The position numbers were made by a program, and so were the translations under genes. The notes beneath the pieces are model-generated. The model ran no database searches. It was not told the origin of the DNA and saw only the letters and a program-made list of their open reading frames with translations. Of a stretch of DNA of 40,061 nt, positions 13,479 through 31,714 are shown piece after piece. Position 1 is the first letter of the stretch, and every line of letters begins with the position of its first letter. This DNA is from Alphaproteobacteria bacterium (lineage in GTDB: Bacteria; Pseudomonadota; Alphaproteobacteria; Elsterales; Elsteraceae). The DNA is taken from contig RDXE01000059.1 in assembly GCA_004292755.1 (NCBI GenBank), positions 1 through 40,061 of the forward strand. Reading direction: 5' to 3'.

Positions 13479-14372
13479 ATGCAGATCAGTGTGAATGGAA
13501 CGACCCTGTGGTTTGACGTCGATGGACCCGTGCTGGTGCCCGATGGGCCTGGGATGCGCGAGCGCCCCACGCTGTTGCTGCTGCATGGCGGTCCTGGGTT
13601 CGACCACACGGGCTTCAAGCCTGTGATGGAGCCGCTGCGCGACCTCTGTCAGATCGTCTATCTGGATCATCGCGGCCAGGGACGCTCTGGCGGCAGCGAT
13701 CCCAGCCATTGGACTCTCAACCAGTGGGCTGACGATGTTCGCGCCTTCTGTGATGCGCTTGGCATTGTGCGACCAATTGTGCTGGGCCAATCCTTTGGTG
13801 GCATGGTCGCCCAAGCCTATGCCACCCGCCACCCGGACCATCCGCTGGCCGTGATCTTCTCCTCCACCACAGCGCGCTGGGATTTGGCGCTGGTGTTGCG
13901 TCGATTTGAGGAGGTGGGTGGACCCGCAGTGCGCGCGGTGGCGGAAGCGTTCTGGACGCGCATGACCGATGCCGATCGCGACGCCTACATGCGCGTTGCC
14001 ATGACCTGCTACAATCCGCGGGCATCGGCCGACCCGTTTTTGCGCAGTCGTGGGCGCCTGAAGCCCGAGGTGCTGCGCCACTTCAGCGGCCCCAACGGGG
14101 AAATGGCGCGCATGGATTTTCGGGCTGATTTGGCCCGGGTGCGTTGTCCAACCCTGGTGTTGGGTGGCTTGGCGGACCCAGTGACGCCCCACGAATGCTC
14201 ACGCGAGATCGCGGCAGCGCTGGTCAACGCGCCAACCGAACTGGTGTTGATGGACGGGTGCGGCCATGGCGTCTGGCGCGATGACCCCGAGGCTGGCATC
14301 GCTGTGCTGCGGCGGTTTGTGGAACGCGTGGCTCAGGCGCGAGACTCAGTCGCGTCCCGTCCCGAAGGGTAG
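13479..14372 (+). CDS. Alpha/beta hydrolase, proline iminopeptidase-like
   Basis: A 297-residue cytoplasmic alpha/beta hydrolase. The ATG at 13479 has AGGAGG six nt upstream; a TTG-led extension of 14 residues is rejected. The oxyanion motif HGGPGFDHTGF is followed by the DHRGQGRS loop. The nucleophile elbow is GQSFGG, the acid is in GGLADPVTP and the histidine is in GCGHGVWRDDP. HGGPG and DxRGxGRS are typical of the S33 family (proline iminopeptidases and relatives). The gene diverges from the peptide ABC importer, so cleavage of imported peptides is a reasonable guess. Other hydrolase substrates are possible. Confidence 0.88.
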   Translation: MQISVNGTTLWFDVDGPVLVPDGPGMRERPTLLLLHGGPGFDHTGFKPVMEPLRDLCQIVYLDHRGQGRSGGSDPSHWTLNQWADDVRAFCDALGIVRPIVLGQSFGGMVAQAYATRHPDHPLAVIFSSTTARWDLALVLRRFEEVGGPAVRAVAEAFWTRMTDADRDAYMRVAMTCYNPRASADPFLRSRGRLKPEVLRHFSGPNGEMARMDFRADLARVRCPTLVLGGLADPVTPHECSREIAAALVNAPTELVLMDGCGHGVWRDDPEAGIAVLRRFVERVAQARDSVASRPEG

Positions 14373-14423
14373 GGCGTGTTGGCAGCTGCCATTGCGGTGT
14401 CTTTCGGTTCTGCGCTATTGTTT
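14373..14423 (+). repeat. 51-bp imperfect repeat, copy 1, before the first oxygenase gene
   Basis: This block begins right at the hydrolase stop and ends 22 bp before the first oxygenase start. By eye 40 of 51 positions match copy 2 at 16195-16245. The shared core of 14 nt is TGTCTTTCGGTTCT. Having one copy ahead of each paralogous oxygenase gene suggests either duplicated leaders or a common regulatory element. Confidence 0.65.
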
Positions 14424-14445
14424 CCGGCGGCAACAGCTGTACTGG

Positions 14446-15993
14446 ATGGTGGCAAAAGTGCTTGAAACCGTAAACCGTGCAGTTGAGTTGTTCAATCTTG
14501 GTCAACGCCAAGAAGCAATGGTATGGGTCAGTTCGGTGCCGCTAAATACTTGGATAGAGATGCCTGATTTCTTTCAGGCTATTCAGGCAATTGCACTAGC
14601 AGCCGCGCAAGAATTGTTAGAAACGGACAAATTATTATCGAGAGAGCCAGAAACATTTGAGCTTTATTGCAAATACTTGCCGCCAGTCAATCAGCAACAG
14701 CTGTGGTTGAGCGTTGTTACTGCTCGTCTCAGCCACGGGGATCCGACGGGGGCCTTGCTCGCTGCCTGCCACGCCCTTGCCGCTCAGCCTGAGGGCGTGT
14801 CCGTCCAGGCATTGATGGCGGAAGCGGCTGCGCATTCCGGTGCGTTCGATGCCGCAGTGATTTTCGCAAGAGCCGCCAGTGATAGGATTGAAGATGGCCC
14901 TCTGCGCGAGCGCATGACGCAAATCATCGCCCTAGAGAATCGCAGCAAGATACGCCACCACAATGCAGGAGGTCTGGCGGTCAGCCTTTTGCATCAGGCA
15001 GAAGCCTATCGCGCAACCTCAGCGGGAACATTCTTCTATCAAAAGATCCAGGCAACGGCTTGCCCGGATGCCGCATGGCAGGGGCTGTTCGACATCGGCC
15101 AGTGTTTTGCCTATCAGTCCCACAATCGACTGGCAATGATTGTGTTTGAGCATATTGCAGAGATGGTACCTTCTGCAGGTATCGCAGAACAGGCGTATGA
15201 TGAGTGTTTGGCGCGAGCCGAACAGTGGACGAACCAAGTCGAGCGCCGTGTCCGTAAGATGCAGGCAGAGATGTTGGCGCTGCTGCCGCCAGAAGGCGAT
15301 GTTTGCGCGGACTGGGATTTAAATGCTGCGCAGACATCACCGAGCCAATTGATAGATGCACTCCGCGCTCATGGGGTGGCACTGATACGAGGCTTGATTG
15401 ATCCAGCGATTATAGCCCAGGTGAGAGCGCACGTCTTCGCAGAAAATCCAGAACGCCGGTTTTTCAAACCAGCAGAAGATTTGCCGCGGGAAGTAATCGT
15501 CGGGCTAGTGCCAGAATCGATTGCCTCAACCATGCGGCAGCTCAATTTAATTGGCCCGGACGGCGGGACGTCCCATGGTCGCCAGATTTTTCCGAACAAC
15601 CTGACGGCAGAAGATTTATTGACAACGACATATCACCAGGATTCTGCGGTGTTTTACCAGCCGCTTATCAATATGTGGGTTCCGTTGGATGATTGTGGAG
15701 AGACGGCACCGGGATTGTCGATTGTTCCGGAATCGACGCGGCAGATTTTCGCGACGCGCCGAGTGGATCGGGATAGTTTCGAGAATTTTGCAATTCAAGA
15801 TCCAAGCTTTTCGTCCGAATACCAGGAAACTACAAGCGTTGCACCGGTCTTTCGCGCGGGTGATGTCTTGCTGTTTCTTGGAACCGTACCGCACCGGACC
15901 CATCTCACATCTTCAATGGTCGAACGCCGCCGAAGTCTTGAATTGAGATTTGTGAAGCCAAGCTGGATCATTGAATCCTTGAATATTGTCTAG
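14446..15993 (+). CDS. Helical N-terminus fused to phytanoyl-CoA dioxygenase-like (PhyH) domain, paralogue 1
   Basis: A 515-residue protein. The ATG at 14446 was chosen because upstream codons are GC-rich and look non-coding; no strong ribosome-binding site is visible. Residues 1 to about 290 are predicted helical and Ala/Leu-rich, with possible degenerate TPR-like pairs. The C-terminal domain is a PhyH-type Fe(II)/2-oxoglutarate oxygenase: HQD at 397-399 supplies the first two iron ligands, His483 in VPHRTH is the likely third, and the Arg run in RRRSLELRF should bind 2-oxoglutarate. MWVPLDDCGETAPGLSIVP is a typical PhyH strand. Codon use is more AT-rich than the flanks (stretches such as aaattattatcg), which suggests transfer. 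It forms a cassette with a paralogue and a glycosyltransferase downstream. Substrate is unknown; a hydroxylated protein, sugar or lipid are all possible. Confidence 0.82.
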   Translation: MVAKVLETVNRAVELFNLGQRQEAMVWVSSVPLNTWIEMPDFFQAIQAIALAAAQELLETDKLLSREPETFELYCKYLPPVNQQQLWLSVVTARLSHGDPTGALLAACHALAAQPEGVSVQALMAEAAAHSGAFDAAVIFARAASDRIEDGPLRERMTQIIALENRSKIRHHNAGGLAVSLLHQAEAYRATSAGTFFYQKIQATACPDAAWQGLFDIGQCFAYQSHNRLAMIVFEHIAEMVPSAGIAEQAYDECLARAEQWTNQVERRVRKMQAEMLALLPPEGDVCADWDLNAAQTSPSQLIDALRAHGVALIRGLIDPAIIAQVRAHVFAENPERRFFKPAEDLPREVIVGLVPESIASTMRQLNLIGPDGGTSHGRQIFPNNLTAEDLLTTTYHQDSAVFYQPLINMWVPLDDCGETAPGLSIVPESTRQIFATRRVDRDSFENFAIQDPSFSSEYQETTSVAPVFRAGDVLLFLGTVPHRTHLTSSMVERRRSLELRFVKPSWIIESLNIV

Positions 15994-16600
15994 AGCTACG
16001 GGACGCACTATAACTCCATAGAGTGGGCAATTTTGAAGTTTAGCCAATCCATGACTGCAATCTGGTGCCAATGTTCCGTGTTGTCTCCGCGTCAGATGAT
16101 CAGCTGCAGACGTCGACGTGGACCGAACCGGCCACGCTGTCGGGATCGTTGCGCGCTGGCCGTAGGGTTAGCCGTTGCAATGGGGTCGGGTTGGGGCGTG
16201 CCGGTGGCTGGCATTGCGTTGTCTTTCGGTTCTCTCGTAGTGTTTGGTCACCGAACGACTGCGCGGGGTGGTGACCGCGAGGTCTGGGGCCGTGAAGCGC
16301 GTGGCTGCAGTCCTCAAACGAAGCGACGAGCGCCGGGCAATGCTCCGCGCACCGCAGCGACCTGTGCTCCGCGGTGAGACCGGCACGCGCGTCGAGCGTG
16401 GCTGCCTGTCTTCAGCGGGGTTAGGGAGTGTCCGGCGGATGTCATCTTGTCGAGGACGGGGAGCCTAACCCAAAAGGTGTCAGCGTCATCAAGTCTAGTG
16501 GACTGTCAGACTCTGGTGTCAAGCTCCCAGGTGGAATGATTTAGTCAGTCCGGGCCGGTTGCCTTGGGCTTCATCGGTTACGAGGTCAAAGGTGGCACAG
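15994..16600. other. 607-bp gap between the two oxygenase genes
   Basis: No supported coding frame is seen; short frames here are low-complexity or lack start signals. It holds repeat copy 2 at 16195-16245. A weak imperfect hairpin lies at 16006-16025 (CACTAT / ATAGAGTG) followed by ggcaatttt, possibly a poor terminator of paralogue 1. The rest has no recognised element. Its length and the repeat copy suggest decayed sequence left by the duplication of the oxygenase gene. Confidence 0.5.
16195..16245 (+). repeat. 51-bp imperfect repeat, copy 2, before the second oxygenase gene
   Basis: This matches copy 1 (14373-14423) at 40 of 51 positions by eye, including the 14-nt core TGTCTTTCGGTTCT. 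It lies 355 bp before the second oxygenase start, whereas copy 1 lies only 22 bp before the first. Spacing is therefore not conserved, which argues for shared ancestry rather than a fixed promoter geometry. Confidence 0.65.
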
Positions 16601-18100
16601 ATGATTGGCGCGCAGACCCTAGGCTCCAACACACTCAACGAGTTGGCTCAGCGAGATATTCAGTCTCGTCTGTCACAGGATCCGCATTTGCTGGCGCGCA
16701 GCCCCACTGCAGTTGATGACCTTGTGTCGGTCCTGACGGCCTGTCCGCAGATAGCCGCTTGTTTTGGCCTCGGAGCTGGGACCAATGAGGCAACAGGACC
16801 AGACCAGCCAGTGGATGGGCTGTCGCAAGAGTCGGTTGCTGCGTTGATCCATGCCTGCATCGGCTTTTTGTTACAGCCACAGGGTGGCGAGGCCCGCTTG
16901 GCGCTCGCCGAGGCAGCGCTCGGTGTTGCTGCGGGGGATGTTGCCAATGTCTTTGCAGTTTCCCTTTTGGAGTATGCTCCACAAGAGACCTATGATCGGA
17001 TTGTTAACCTCAGTGTTGTGACATCCGAAAGCTTTCTGAAGTACGGGCAATTTGATCCAGCTGCAGTTTCATGGAAGAATCTGGCTGAGATTTGGCGTGG
17101 AACGGCACCACATTTATTCATGGCAGCAAAGATATTAGCCGCACGTGGGGAATTGCCGGTTTGGGAAGCGATATATGACTTGGCACTGTGGTTGGCGCAA
17201 TATCAAGTCGAGCCACTTGCGCTGTTGTTCCTGGATCGATTGAGAACCCATGTCGGGGTAATCGGCGCCATTGAGCATGCCTATGACGAAATTGCAGTCA
17301 AGATCGGCAGCTTTGCCGATCAGGTGAGTCGGCGTCGCCAGCTGATGCGGGTGCTGATGACGGAGTTGGTGCCGGTCACCGCCGAGCCGAACAGTGCATG
17401 GGATATCCCGCCAAATCTTGATGCACCTCACGACATTGTGCGTGCCAGTCTGTCACTTCAATCCCATGGGTTCGTCGTGCTTCGGCAGGCGATACCGCAG
17501 GCTGTTATTGCAGAAACCCGGCGCGTTCTGTTCGAGACAGATGCGGATCGACGGTTTGTGAACCCGGCCCAGGATCTGACCAAGCCTCAGATTGAGGCGC
17601 TGGTGACCCCACGCATTCGGGGGATTCTGGCTAAGTTTGGTCTTGCGGGCCCAGACGCGGCAACGTCCCATGGTCGTCATGTCGTCCCGGATGACGAGAC
17701 CAAGCGAGACTTCCTGACGCTCGCCTTCCACCAAGACGCGTTTGTATTCTTTCAACCGCTGTTCAATGTTTGGGTTCCCCTTGATTCTTGTGGAGTCAGC
17801 GCGCCATCATTGGCTCTGATCCCAGATCGCAGTCGGGACATTGTGCCAACCCGCGTGACGGAGACGGCGACGTTCGAAACCGGCGTGGTTCTGGACGCGG
17901 TTGCACAACAGTTAGAGGCGGCCAATGGGTTGATCGTGCCAAGGTTTGAGCCGGGCGATGTCTTGATATTCATTGGAACTGTTTTGCATCGCACACACCT
18001 GACCGAGGAGATGACGCAGTCGAGGCGGAGCCTGGAGCTGCGCTTCGCTTCGCCCTATTGGGTGCGTCAGCCGTTGCTGGCGTGGAGCGAATTGGCATGA
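16601..18100 (+). CDS. Helical N-terminus fused to phytanoyl-CoA dioxygenase-like (PhyH) domain, paralogue 2
   Basis: A 499-residue paralogue of the preceding oxygenase. The ATG at 16601 has AAAGGTGG upstream; a TTG at 16559 is less likely. The N-terminal 280 residues are helical and diverged from paralogue 1. The C-terminal domain keeps HQD at 377-379, His463 in VLHRTH and the RRSLELRF arginines. The spacing between the HxD and the distal His is identical in both proteins (86 residues from His to His). Shared blocks include TSHGR, the YHQD/FHQD strand, WVPLD-CG and GDVL-FIGTV. Codon use is closer to the surroundings than in paralogue 1. The stop overlaps the glycosyltransferase start (ATGA), linking the two products functionally. 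Substrate unknown. Confidence 0.84.
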   Translation: MIGAQTLGSNTLNELAQRDIQSRLSQDPHLLARSPTAVDDLVSVLTACPQIAACFGLGAGTNEATGPDQPVDGLSQESVAALIHACIGFLLQPQGGEARLALAEAALGVAAGDVANVFAVSLLEYAPQETYDRIVNLSVVTSESFLKYGQFDPAAVSWKNLAEIWRGTAPHLFMAAKILAARGELPVWEAIYDLALWLAQYQVEPLALLFLDRLRTHVGVIGAIEHAYDEIAVKIGSFADQVSRRRQLMRVLMTELVPVTAEPNSAWDIPPNLDAPHDIVRASLSLQSHGFVVLRQAIPQAVIAETRRVLFETDADRRFVNPAQDLTKPQIEALVTPRIRGILAKFGLAGPDAATSHGRHVVPDDETKRDFLTLAFHQDAFVFFQPLFNVWVPLDSCGVSAPSLALIPDRSRDIVPTRVTETATFETGVVLDAVAQQLEAANGLIVPRFEPGDVLIFIGTVLHRTHLTEEMTQSRRSLELRFASPYWVRQPLLAWSELA

Positions 18101-19500
18101 CCGACCTTGCGGAGTTGCTGGAGCGCGCGCACACCGCATCGCCGGAGAACCACATCAGCATTGCCGTGGCGGCCTACAATCACATGGCAGCCAGTGTCGC
18201 CAATCAGGATTACGACACTGTGGGCCTGTTGGTTGAGGCCATCCCGGAGCACTGGGTACCGGAGGAGCACCGGGCCACATGGCTGCTGGCCGGCGCCCAC
18301 GCCATCATGCATTCCACCAACCCGTTGGTGTCGCGTCAGCGCGCCATCATGGACCGGTTCGCGGCTGCGTGCGTGCGCCCCTACTGTGCCGCGCGCACTC
18401 CGCGGCTGGCTCGGGTGCGGCCACGCCGGAAAATCGCGGTTGGGTTCATCGGTGGCGTGCTGGCGGGCACTGCCTATGCCGACCGGGGTATCCGCGACGT
18501 CCTGCGTGGCTTGGACCGGGATCGTCTTGAAGTCCACGCACTCACGCTCACTGCTGAGGCAGTTGTGGATAAGGATTGGCTGGGTGTTGATTGTGTTCAT
18601 GCCATTGGTGATGAAAGTGCGGGCGAACATCATCTTCGCGTCCTCGGTCTAGACGTGCTTGTCTATTTGGATGGAGTCGTGCCCTCGATGCCGTGGCGGC
18701 TCTTGGCGGCACGGACCACGCAGCGACAGCTTGCATGGATCCACACCCATCTAACGTTTGGCAGTGGTATGATTGATGGTCAGATCGCTGATCTCAACTT
18801 GATCCCGCAGCAGGACAGAGTCTGGTACGCAGAACCAGTACTGGATTTGGAGGGCACGGCCAGCAGTTGCCGCTTGATGCCGCGCTACTCGGCCGCGGGA
18901 CCCGGCCCGATCATCAGCGCGGGTCACATCACCTTCGGCAGTTTCAACCGCCCCAGCAAAATCTCGCAAGCCTGCGCTCATGCCTGGAGCCAAATCCTGC
19001 AGGCACTGCCGTCTGCCTTGCTGCTCATTGTGAATGAAGCCCTGGTCCGCCCAGTCGAACGGCAAGCACTCGAGGCGCGTTTGCAGCAGGCACGAGTACC
19101 AATGGACCGTGTGATATTTGATACTGGGGGTTCCGATGAGGTTTTTTTCGGACGGTACAGTGCTGTCGATTTGATACTTGATTCTTTTCCATTTGTTGGC
19201 GGTCTGACCTCTTTTGACGCGCTCGCACAGAGCGTGCCGATTCTCACGCTGGAGGGGCCGGGTTTCGTGGAACGGCAGTCAGGAACTCTGCTCCGGGCGA
19301 TTGGCGAGCCGGACTTGGTCACCAGCACAGTCAATGACTATGTGGCGATGGCGATTGCCCTGGCGGGCCAGCCCGAGCGCTTGACGGCGCTTCGTCTCTC
19401 GCTGCGAGAGCGGGCGGCCACAAGCTCTGTGTTTGATATGACCAGCTTGGCCCAGCGCATGAGCGATCTCCTGGTGGCCCAGGCGGCGCGAAAGCTGTGA
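18097..19500 (+). CDS. OGT/SPINDLY-like family 41 glycosyltransferase without TPRs
   Basis: A 467-residue protein whose ATG overlaps the oxygenase stop as ATGA. After about 110 helical residues comes a GT41-type catalytic region. The first Rossmann half starts with RRKIAVGFIGG; HTHLTFGSGMIDGQIADLNLIP corresponds to the family's YxDY-IAD-xxxP block. The second half has ITFGSFNRPSKIS, then VDLILDSFPFVGGLTSFDAL and VPILTLEGPGFVERQSGTLL, which match the nucleotide-sugar site of OGT/SPINDLY proteins. Those enzymes usually carry many TPRs that choose protein targets; here TPRs are absent, so targeting may come from the helical parts of the neighbouring oxygenases. It is likely cytoplasmic and acts on proteins, by family. 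Acceptor and sugar are unknown. Confidence 0.82.
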   Translation: MTDLAELLERAHTASPENHISIAVAAYNHMAASVANQDYDTVGLLVEAIPEHWVPEEHRATWLLAGAHAIMHSTNPLVSRQRAIMDRFAAACVRPYCAARTPRLARVRPRRKIAVGFIGGVLAGTAYADRGIRDVLRGLDRDRLEVHALTLTAEAVVDKDWLGVDCVHAIGDESAGEHHLRVLGLDVLVYLDGVVPSMPWRLLAARTTQRQLAWIHTHLTFGSGMIDGQIADLNLIPQQDRVWYAEPVLDLEGTASSCRLMPRYSAAGPGPIISAGHITFGSFNRPSKISQACAHAWSQILQALPSALLLIVNEALVRPVERQALEARLQQARVPMDRVIFDTGGSDEVFFGRYSAVDLILDSFPFVGGLTSFDALAQSVPILTLEGPGFVERQSGTLLRAIGEPDLVTSTVNDYVAMAIALAGQPERLTALRLSLRERAATSSVFDMTSLAQRMSDLLVAQAARKL

Positions 19501-29922: not shown

Positions 29923-31188
29923 CTACTCCACCGCGAGTGGCGTCAACTGCACCACGATGGCACGCACGGGGCGGCCTGCTTCCTTGCGCAGGATGGCATC
30001 GGTGATGCCCAGGCAGGCGAAGCCCGCCTGTGCCGCCAGCTGGGTCACATGGTCGGCGTTGTGGCGGTAGCGCAACCGCTCACCCACTTCGTAGGTCAGC
30101 GTGGTCTCAGAGCGTTCGAGCGAGAAGACAAACCGCCCATCTGGCTTCATCAGCGGCCGCGCGGCAGTGAGCACCGGGGAGAGGTCGCCGAAATAGTTCA
30201 GCACGTCGGCAGCGACCAGCAGGTCATAGGCGGGTCGTGGCGGCTGGGTTAGGAAATCGACCAGATCGCCCACCACCAGGGTGGCGTAAACGGCTTTTTC
30301 CTCCGCCCGCTCCACCATCGCGGAGGAGAGGTCCACGCCATCGATCACGCGCTCGGGCTGGGCGAATTCCTGACCCACCAGACCTGTGCCGCAGCCAAGA
30401 TCGGCGATTGTGATTGGGGCAGTGCGGGTCGCCAACCAGTCGCGCAGCAGATTGTGCAAATGCCGCGGGGCGGTGTAGCCCAGCTTGACGACAAGATGAT
30501 AATCGAAGCTGCTTGCGTAATCATCGAACAGTCGGGTGACAAAGTCGGGCGGGACGCGGTCCAGCAGCGCGCCGCCAACGGTCGACAGGGCGATGCGCGC
30601 GCCCAGCCGGTCGCCGGGCTCCATGCGCAGATAGGTCTCATAGGCGGCCCGCGCCTCCAGCGGGTGGCCCAACATGCGCTCCGCCTCGGCCAAGCGGAAC
30701 CAGCCATCGGAGCGGTCTGGCGACAGGGCGCAGGCGCGGAGGGCGGCGCGGCGCGCGCGTTCGTACTGGCGGATGTTGATCAGGGATTCCGACAGGTAGG
30801 CCCATGCATCGCGCAGCATCGGCTGCAATTCCGTGGCGCGGGTGTAGTGGTCAACCGCCTTGCCCCATTTGCGCACAGCGCGAAAACAATTGGCGAGATT
30901 GGCGTGGGCGACGGCATCGGTCTCCCGGACCCGCAGGCTGGCCTCCAGATAGTCAATGGCGAGACCGAGCCGATTGGCCTGATAGCAGATCACCCCCATG
31001 CCCTGGAGCGCCCCGGCATGGATCGGGTCCACCTCCAGCACCTGTCGATAGACGCTTTCAGCAGCGACGAAGTCGCCCCGCATGTGCGCTTCCATTGCGT
31101 CGGCGACGCGACGGTTGTTCTCCACCACCTGCGGATCAAGGGGCGGAGTTTGCGGCGGCAGGCCGGGTTGTGGTGGTAGGTCGGACAT
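29923..31188 (-). CDS. TPR-fused SAM-dependent methyltransferase
   Basis: A 421-residue protein starting at the ATG at 31188; an ATG at 31233 is an alternative and no strong ribosome-binding site is seen. After a Pro-rich lead come about five TPR units (residues 25-190), for example GDFVAAESVYRQVLEVDP and YTRATELQP. A linker FDDYASSFDYHLVVKLGY, typical of this fusion family, precedes the Rossmann methyltransferase with DLGCGTG at 263-269. The acidic loop is VDLSSAMVERA and the NYF segment is DVLNYFGDLSP. TPRs suggest a protein or complex target. It lies between the SNase-like lipoprotein and arsH on the same strand. Substrate unknown. Confidence 0.88.
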   Translation of the reverse strand: MSDLPPQPGLPPQTPPLDPQVVENNRRVADAMEAHMRGDFVAAESVYRQVLEVDPIHAGALQGMGVICYQANRLGLAIDYLEASLRVRETDAVAHANLANCFRAVRKWGKAVDHYTRATELQPMLRDAWAYLSESLINIRQYERARRAALRACALSPDRSDGWFRLAEAERMLGHPLEARAAYETYLRMEPGDRLGARIALSTVGGALLDRVPPDFVTRLFDDYASSFDYHLVVKLGYTAPRHLHNLLRDWLATRTAPITIADLGCGTGLVGQEFAQPERVIDGVDLSSAMVERAEEKAVYATLVVGDLVDFLTQPPRPAYDLLVAADVLNYFGDLSPVLTAARPLMKPDGRFVFSLERSETTLTYEVGERLRYRHNADHVTQLAAQAGFACLGITDAILRKEAGRPVRAIVVQLTPLAVE

Positions 31189-31285
31189 CGGCGCAACCGT
31201 GACGAAAGGACGTCCGTTCGGCAAGACTTCCATGACGCGGCTTACGCAACGACCAACAAATGGCGCAATGCTCGCGGATTGGACG

Positions 31286-31714
31286 CTATCGCTGGCAATA
31301 GCTTGGCAATGGGTATCGGCGGGCGAGGCCACTGCCTGCTTGCCGTTCCGCGGCGGCATAGCGCCCGCGGGAATAGCGCGGACAATCGCGCGCCACACCC
31401 AATTGCACCATGGCTTCGCCCAGATCGCGCTCACCAAGGCGGCAGACGGCAATGGTTCGGTCGCTGTTGGTTTCCCCCGTCGGATCGCAGCGAACATGGC
31501 CGCTGCGGGTCAGGCGACGCAGCGCATCGCGCGCCTCCCGCCCACCGGGTTGGTCCAATTCAGGGGCGGCGATGCCAGACAGGCGAATCGCTGTGCCGCC
31601 AATTTCCAGCGTGTCCCCATCGCGAACATGGCTGACCCGCCCCTCCAGCGGTTTGCCGCTACTGCACGCAGCAATCACCAGCACCAGCGCCAGCGCGGCT
31701 GACCGGGCGAGCAC
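31286..31714 (-). CDS. SNase-like (thermonuclease) lipoprotein
   Basis: A 142-residue protein if the GTG at 31714 is used; the start is inferred from the signal sequence, not from a strong ribosome-binding site. VLARSAALALVLVIAACSS is a lipoprotein signal with Cys17 in the lipobox. The mature part is a staphylococcal-nuclease fold: GRVSHVRDGDTLEIGG and RLSGIAAPELDQPGG hold the metal-side Asp and the Arg and Glu of the active site. DRTIAVCRLGERDLGEAMVQ is the second conserved block. It is probably anchored in the envelope. It heads the minus-strand group with the methyltransferase and arsH, 97 bp from the former, and diverges from the Crp/Fnr gene. Confidence 0.78.
   Translation of the reverse strand: MLARSAALALVLVIAACSSGKPLEGRVSHVRDGDTLEIGGTAIRLSGIAAPELDQPGGREARDALRRLTRSGHVRCDPTGETNSDRTIAVCRLGERDLGEAMVQLGVARDCPRYSRGRYAAAERQAGSGLARRYPLPSYCQR

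Follow-up and report, generated by a model that had tools for sequence, protein, structure and literature searches.

An oxygenase with a TPR-like helical arm and a glycosyltransferase of family GT41 without TPRs are encoded by overlapping genes in the window analysed here, a stretch of 40,061 nucleotides that represents contig C75 of a 4.2 Mb alphaproteobacterial genome, and the pair recurs in a sister species. Three genes with open frames are located on the plus strand (14446-15993, 16559/16601-18100, and 18097-19500) and encode the paralogous oxygenases OxyA and OxyB followed by the GT41 enzyme. The architecture of the proteins, their catalytic residues, the gene coupling, and the recurrence in the sister species are established. 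The leading explanation, albeit with somewhat less than an even chance, is a two-enzyme module in which OxyB and the GT41 would hydroxylate and glycosylate the same protein in a coupled manner, OxyA being a second, diverged oxygenase.

The cassette follows the gene of an alpha/beta hydrolase (Abhydrolase_1; proline-iminopeptidase/enol-lactonase-like; 13479-14372, plus strand), a conserved neighbour. The first-pass annotation placed the start of the cassette at 14373, which has to be corrected as the hydrolase ends there and the first plausible ATG of OxyA is located at 14446. OxyA (515 aa; 14446-15993, plus strand) combines the TPR-like helical arm with a PhyH-type Fe(II)/2-oxoglutarate (2OG) oxygenase. 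The start of its paralogue OxyB (16601-18100, plus strand) is uncertain and is either ATG 16601 or TTG 16559. The two genes are separated by a spacer of 565 nt (15994-16558, plus strand) without a credible coding remnant; a GT41 remnant in this gap was considered and rejected, as tblastn gave no credible match. Because of this gap, tight coupling to the GT41 gene (18097-19500, plus strand) is limited to OxyB. The ATGA overlap of the OxyB stop and the GT41 start (18097-18100, plus strand), on which the first-pass annotation had based this coupling, was read directly. Upstream, the locus is flanked by a divergent oligopeptide-type ABC transporter and downstream by an SsuA-type ABC transporter. 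The window also contains another TPR-armed catalyst of this lineage, a TPR-methyltransferase fusion (29923-31497, minus strand).

OxyA and OxyB share 35% identity over 416 aa (E 9e-80). OxyA matches PhyH (PF05721) with 49.1 bits, OxyB with 20.5 bits, which is just under the Pfam cut-off of 22, and three further relatives with 22.8, 27.3, and 17.7 bits. The HxD motif, the distal His (Asp-to-His spacing of 84), and an Arg 12 residues later are invariant in these five members, and this pattern (HxD-84-H-12-R) has been kept despite an overall identity of 30-48%. The residues are H397, D399, H483, and R495/R496 in OxyA and H391, D393, and H477 in OxyB (numbered from TTG 16559). The Arg, at +12/+13 after the distal His, lies inside an RRS sequence that is invariant in the five members and, from what is known of the PhyH family, is presumably the 2OG binder. 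In an AlphaFold2 model of OxyA (mean pLDDT 76.5, from a shallow five-sequence alignment), helices extend to residue 279 and are followed by the oxygenase core. Residues 287-509 (15304-15972, plus strand) could be superimposed on solved Fe(II)/2OG dioxygenases using VIA-align 2 (Z 13.0, rmsd 3.7 over 185 residues with 7oll; also 5ybn). The nearest solved folds are AsqJ and PrhA (Z 13.0), and the fold neighbours are mostly small-molecule enzymes, including the aminoglycoside oxygenase KanJ. A double-stranded beta-helix fold is predicted for the core. As its pLDDT falls below 50 in places, the assignment as an oxygenase rests on the family match and the conserved ligands no less than on the model; a sequence search of the solved structures with the oxygenase profile yielded chance-level matches only. 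The two genes had been described as paralogous fusions of a helical part with a PhyH domain of identical HxD/His spacing, and this description holds (35% identity; spacing of 84 in both). The core is, as judged from its predicted fold and its retained metal and 2OG ligands, intact and not truncated.

The N-terminal arm of OxyA (residues 1-279; 14446-15282, plus strand) consists, in the model, of about eight helical hairpins with a pLDDT of mostly 80-97. The best Foldseek matches of the arm were a consensus TPR (E 1.1e-4) and the TPR part of human OGT (1w3b; E 7.5e-4), both with low TM-scores. Pfam TPR matches in OxyA and OxyB remained below threshold (TPR_19 with E 0.19 in OxyA), and two to three TPR-like windows were present per protein versus 0.3-0.7 in shuffled sequences, single shuffles reaching three to four. 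In view of the low TM-scores and the weak sequence support, the arm is termed a predicted divergent TPR superhelix, resembling that of OGT itself. In that case, the TPR arm belongs to the oxygenase and not to the transferase. Identity among the members is 22-45% in the arm versus 40-51% in the catalytic half, as would be expected for a recognition arm. The first-pass annotation saw the helical N-termini as target selectors that replace TPRs: the Foldseek matches agree with the look of a substrate arm, whereas the idea of a replacement falls because the arm itself looks like a divergent TPR solenoid.

The glycosyltransferase (467 aa) is a SPINDLY/TtOGT-like enzyme with a short helical N-cap. 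It matches PF13844 with 62.9 bits (cut-off of 25), in the C-terminal lobe only. Thermobaculum TtOGT (E 1e-40 using a three-member profile) and the O-fucosyltransferase SPINDLY (SPY) are its nearest solved relatives in sequence as well as fold; its structural model, which is of moderate confidence (mean pLDDT 61), fits SPINDLY best. The essential Lys is common to all three, K288 aligning with SPY K665 and TtOGT K341. Unlike both relatives, the enzyme has no detectable TPR and no DxxxH motif. Using Pfam, no TPR was recognised, and the catalytic lobes are preceded by a helical stretch of about 100 residues, in agreement with the initial description of a GT41 without TPRs. The DxxxH motif (SPY D491/H495) is replaced by GFIGGVLAGTAY where GxxSxDxRxH is expected. 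In SPY, the His of this motif is essential while the Asp is dispensable (PMC9715652). DxxxH is also missing or shifted in several of the other GT41s sampled and, therefore, its absence weakens the claim of a standard activity and not the family assignment. Loss of the donor-binding Thr was ruled out, since GGLT is a common variant in the sample of bacterial GT41s. The closest paralogues of the enzyme are two tandem GT41s on another contig of the genome (L087:10860-14044 on G000:C2), with a weak TPR signal at most and no adjoining oxygenase.

The sister species (MAG JAAFHH010000012.1; L034/L038) carries two oxygenase-GT41 pairs in the syntenic order transporter (minus strand), Oxy1, GT41-1, hydrolase, Oxy2, and GT41-2. 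GT41-1 overlaps Oxy1 by GTGA (L034:5200-5203), and 4-nt overlaps are present in two of the three pairs across both species. The hydrolase between the two pairs is a 68% identical orthologue of the one in the window. At the DNA level the two species are 79% identical in the transporter stretch and 71% in the hydrolase gene, the cassette being far more diverged, and the frames of the cassette genes are intact in both. The sister GT41s are 64% identical to each other versus 50-52% to the window GT41; this closer mutual relation is consistent with duplication of the pair or gene conversion in the sister lineage. Co-occurrence of all three genes, from which the first-pass annotation expected support, was seen in part: the pairing of oxygenase and GT41 recurs, twice in the sister species, while a fixed trio does not, as OxyA and a third paralogue on contig C36 have no adjoining GT41. 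The conserved unit is the oxygenase-GT41 pair and not the trio.

The full-length oxygenase family comprises three copies in the genome under study (OxyA, OxyB, and C36:69681-71201) and two in the sister species. No further members were found at stringent E-values in samples of 385 genomes of the class and 398 of the phylum, which partly overlap and both include the genome of the window. Scanning the genomes of named species with profile A1 returned the sister MAG only, and a single query (P0001) against genome contigs gave no match. As far as sampled, the pair appears to be confined to one genus. A mobile, phage, or plasmid origin was considered and rejected, as no relative of the family was detected among phages, plasmids, and viral contigs.

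The oxygenases also occur alone. No GT41 gene lies directly 3' of OxyA, and the paralogue on G000:C36 stands by itself. Both species moreover contain a shorter TPR-PhyH gene without a GT41 neighbour (L106:6284-7483 on contig C3, and L103:7167-8327). In hhalign, these TPR-PhyH proteins match the OxyA/OxyB family over the oxygenase and the last helices (probability 97.8%, E 7e-13), with HQD and HRTxLTxxM as common motifs. They differ from OxyA and OxyB in being shorter, in having weak N-terminal TPR matches only, and in being encoded by a single gene. The solitary position of OxyA, the C36 paralogue, and the C3 protein indicates that these oxygenases can do without a GT41 gene beside them. Across 14 further genomes of the class, the surroundings of 51 GT41 matches (up to 20 kb on the same contig) contained no PhyH match, a tally that is limited by short contigs and that diverged PhyH domains would escape. 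A second PhyH-GT41 neighbourhood was found in the genome of the window itself, in an apparent glycan cluster on contig C91 with a PhyH gene 1.7 kb from a TPR-GT41 gene. This cluster (L091:6189-10830 on G000:C91) consists of genes for the TPR-GT41, an aminotransferase-like protein, a PglD-like acetyltransferase, and the short PhyH protein, names that were partly obtained by reading translations. Together with the tally elsewhere, it makes the PhyH-GT41 association apparently a feature of the genus. The open literature yielded no paper that connects PhyH with GT41, an absence that is weak evidence.

Bacterial GT41s are numerous, while their substrates and the way in which these are chosen are mostly unknown. 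The TPR-GTs of the FlmG type, which likewise occur in alphaproteobacteria, resemble the cassette in combining a cytoplasmic OGT-type transferase with a TPR arm for recognition. In FlmG, the substrate is bound by the TPR half and not by a free GT domain, and the GT half alone modifies flagellin insufficiently (PMC7591256). By this precedent, the proximity of a GT41 without TPRs to a protein that carries a TPR-like arm would suggest a division of labour. FlmG is a fusion of arm and transferase that serves flagellin and comes without an oxygenase, whereas in the cassette the arm is on the oxygenase, the GT41 is TPR-less, and flagellin is encoded elsewhere, on contig C2. The combination of a TPR domain with a 2OG oxygenase head has its counterpart in AspH, an established protein-hydroxylase architecture that acts on a protein (PMC6817910). 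AspH belongs to a different oxygenase family and has an unusual iron site (PMC13168262), whereas OxyA and OxyB retain HxD...H.

In the module proposed here, the TPR-like arm of the oxygenase would bind a protein, of which a residue would be hydroxylated by the Fe(II)/2OG head. The TPR-less GT41, made in step with the oxygenase, would then glycosylate the same protein, either at the new hydroxyl or at a nearby Ser/Thr. The same logic, in which a hydroxyl made by an oxygenase is used by a glycosyltransferase, underlies the Skp1 pathway (PhyA then Gnt1). The Skp1 enzymes are a prolyl-4-hydroxylase and a non-GT41 transferase and, thus, belong to families other than those of the cassette. In Dictyostelium, hydroxylation of Skp1 precedes its glycosylation (PMC3515798). 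A stricter version, which we regard as distinctly unlikely, is that of a split OGT whose targeting arm, placed on the oxygenase, supplies the two active sites with one and the same protein; glycosylation would then depend on O2 and 2-oxoglutarate. If true, it would be a bacterial counterpart of the oxygen-sensing hydroxylation and glycosylation of Skp1, built from different enzyme families. The translationally coupled TPR-less GT41 and TPR-oxygenase constitute a small system for asking whether targeting can take place in trans and whether, in bacteria, hydroxylation prepares the glycosylation site. Points that count against the module are the lack of an apparent substrate nearby, the lone oxygenases, the spread within one genus, the 51 GT41 loci elsewhere without a PhyH neighbour, the missing DxxxH, the GT41 pLDDT of 61, and the fold of the oxygenase, whose nearest solved neighbours act mostly on small molecules.

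The last point would fit an oxygenase that oxidises the transferred glycan, its precursor, or a small molecule, leaving the GT41 to attach a sugar to a protein. KanJ is among its nearest fold neighbours, and other PhyH genes reside in glycan-type clusters, namely that on C91 and one on C48 with sugar-nucleotide genes (several names again being read from translations). The window, however, contains no sugar-nucleotide gene around the cassette, and an arm of about 280 residues is unnecessary for a small molecule; we consider this explanation unlikely. Rather unlikely, in our opinion, is that the oxygenase and the GT41 are co-transcribed with separate targets and no joint chemistry, the cassette being one of the many TPR-plus-catalyst genes of the lineage. 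In favour of this view are the lone OxyA, C36, and C3 proteins, the 16 GT41-like matches in the genome, and the TPR-methyltransferase in the window. Against it, the pair has been preserved in two species whose GT41s are only 50-52% identical, two of the three pairs overlap by 4 nt, and the sister species carries two complete pairs.

The cassette could also be decaying or non-catalytic, with an inactive GT41 and the oxygenases as diverging relics, which seems very improbable. The GT41 without DxxxH, the OxyA gene without a GT41 after it, and the codon usage could be read in this way: the GC3 values of OxyA (0.54), OxyB (0.59), and the GT41 (0.69) lie below those of the flanking genes (0.73-0.85). 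This contrast points to relaxed selection on codons or to a history of their own, and a foreign origin is possible. Yet, the oxygenase ligands and the Lys of the GT41 have all been retained despite deep divergence, the frames are intact in both species, and DxxxH varies in other GT41s as well.

The protein that the module would modify is unlikely to be flagellin, which the first-pass annotation had named as an example. The flagellin gene found in the genome (L088:13770-15008; PF00669, PF00700) is situated on C2 between other TPR-GT41 genes, which are candidates for its glycosylation, and the cassette lies elsewhere. Neither a gene for a surface protein nor another candidate substrate is apparent near the cassette. 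The region on C2 (L088:7510-18313 on G000:C2), in which the flagellin gene is flanked by three genes of the TPR-GT41 type of roughly 1000 residues each, is probably a flagellin glycosylation locus.

An Rfam search of the window revealed no RNA element, and predicted sigma-70 promoters and terminators were not in excess of those in shuffled sequences. A direct repeat of 57 nt (77%) occurs upstream of OxyA (14367-14423) and in the OxyA-OxyB spacer (16189-16245). As these are the only two copies in the whole genome, a genome-wide element could be ruled out; the sister locus carries no copy. The repeat may have been left behind by a tandem duplication, or it may be a regulatory segment common to both genes.
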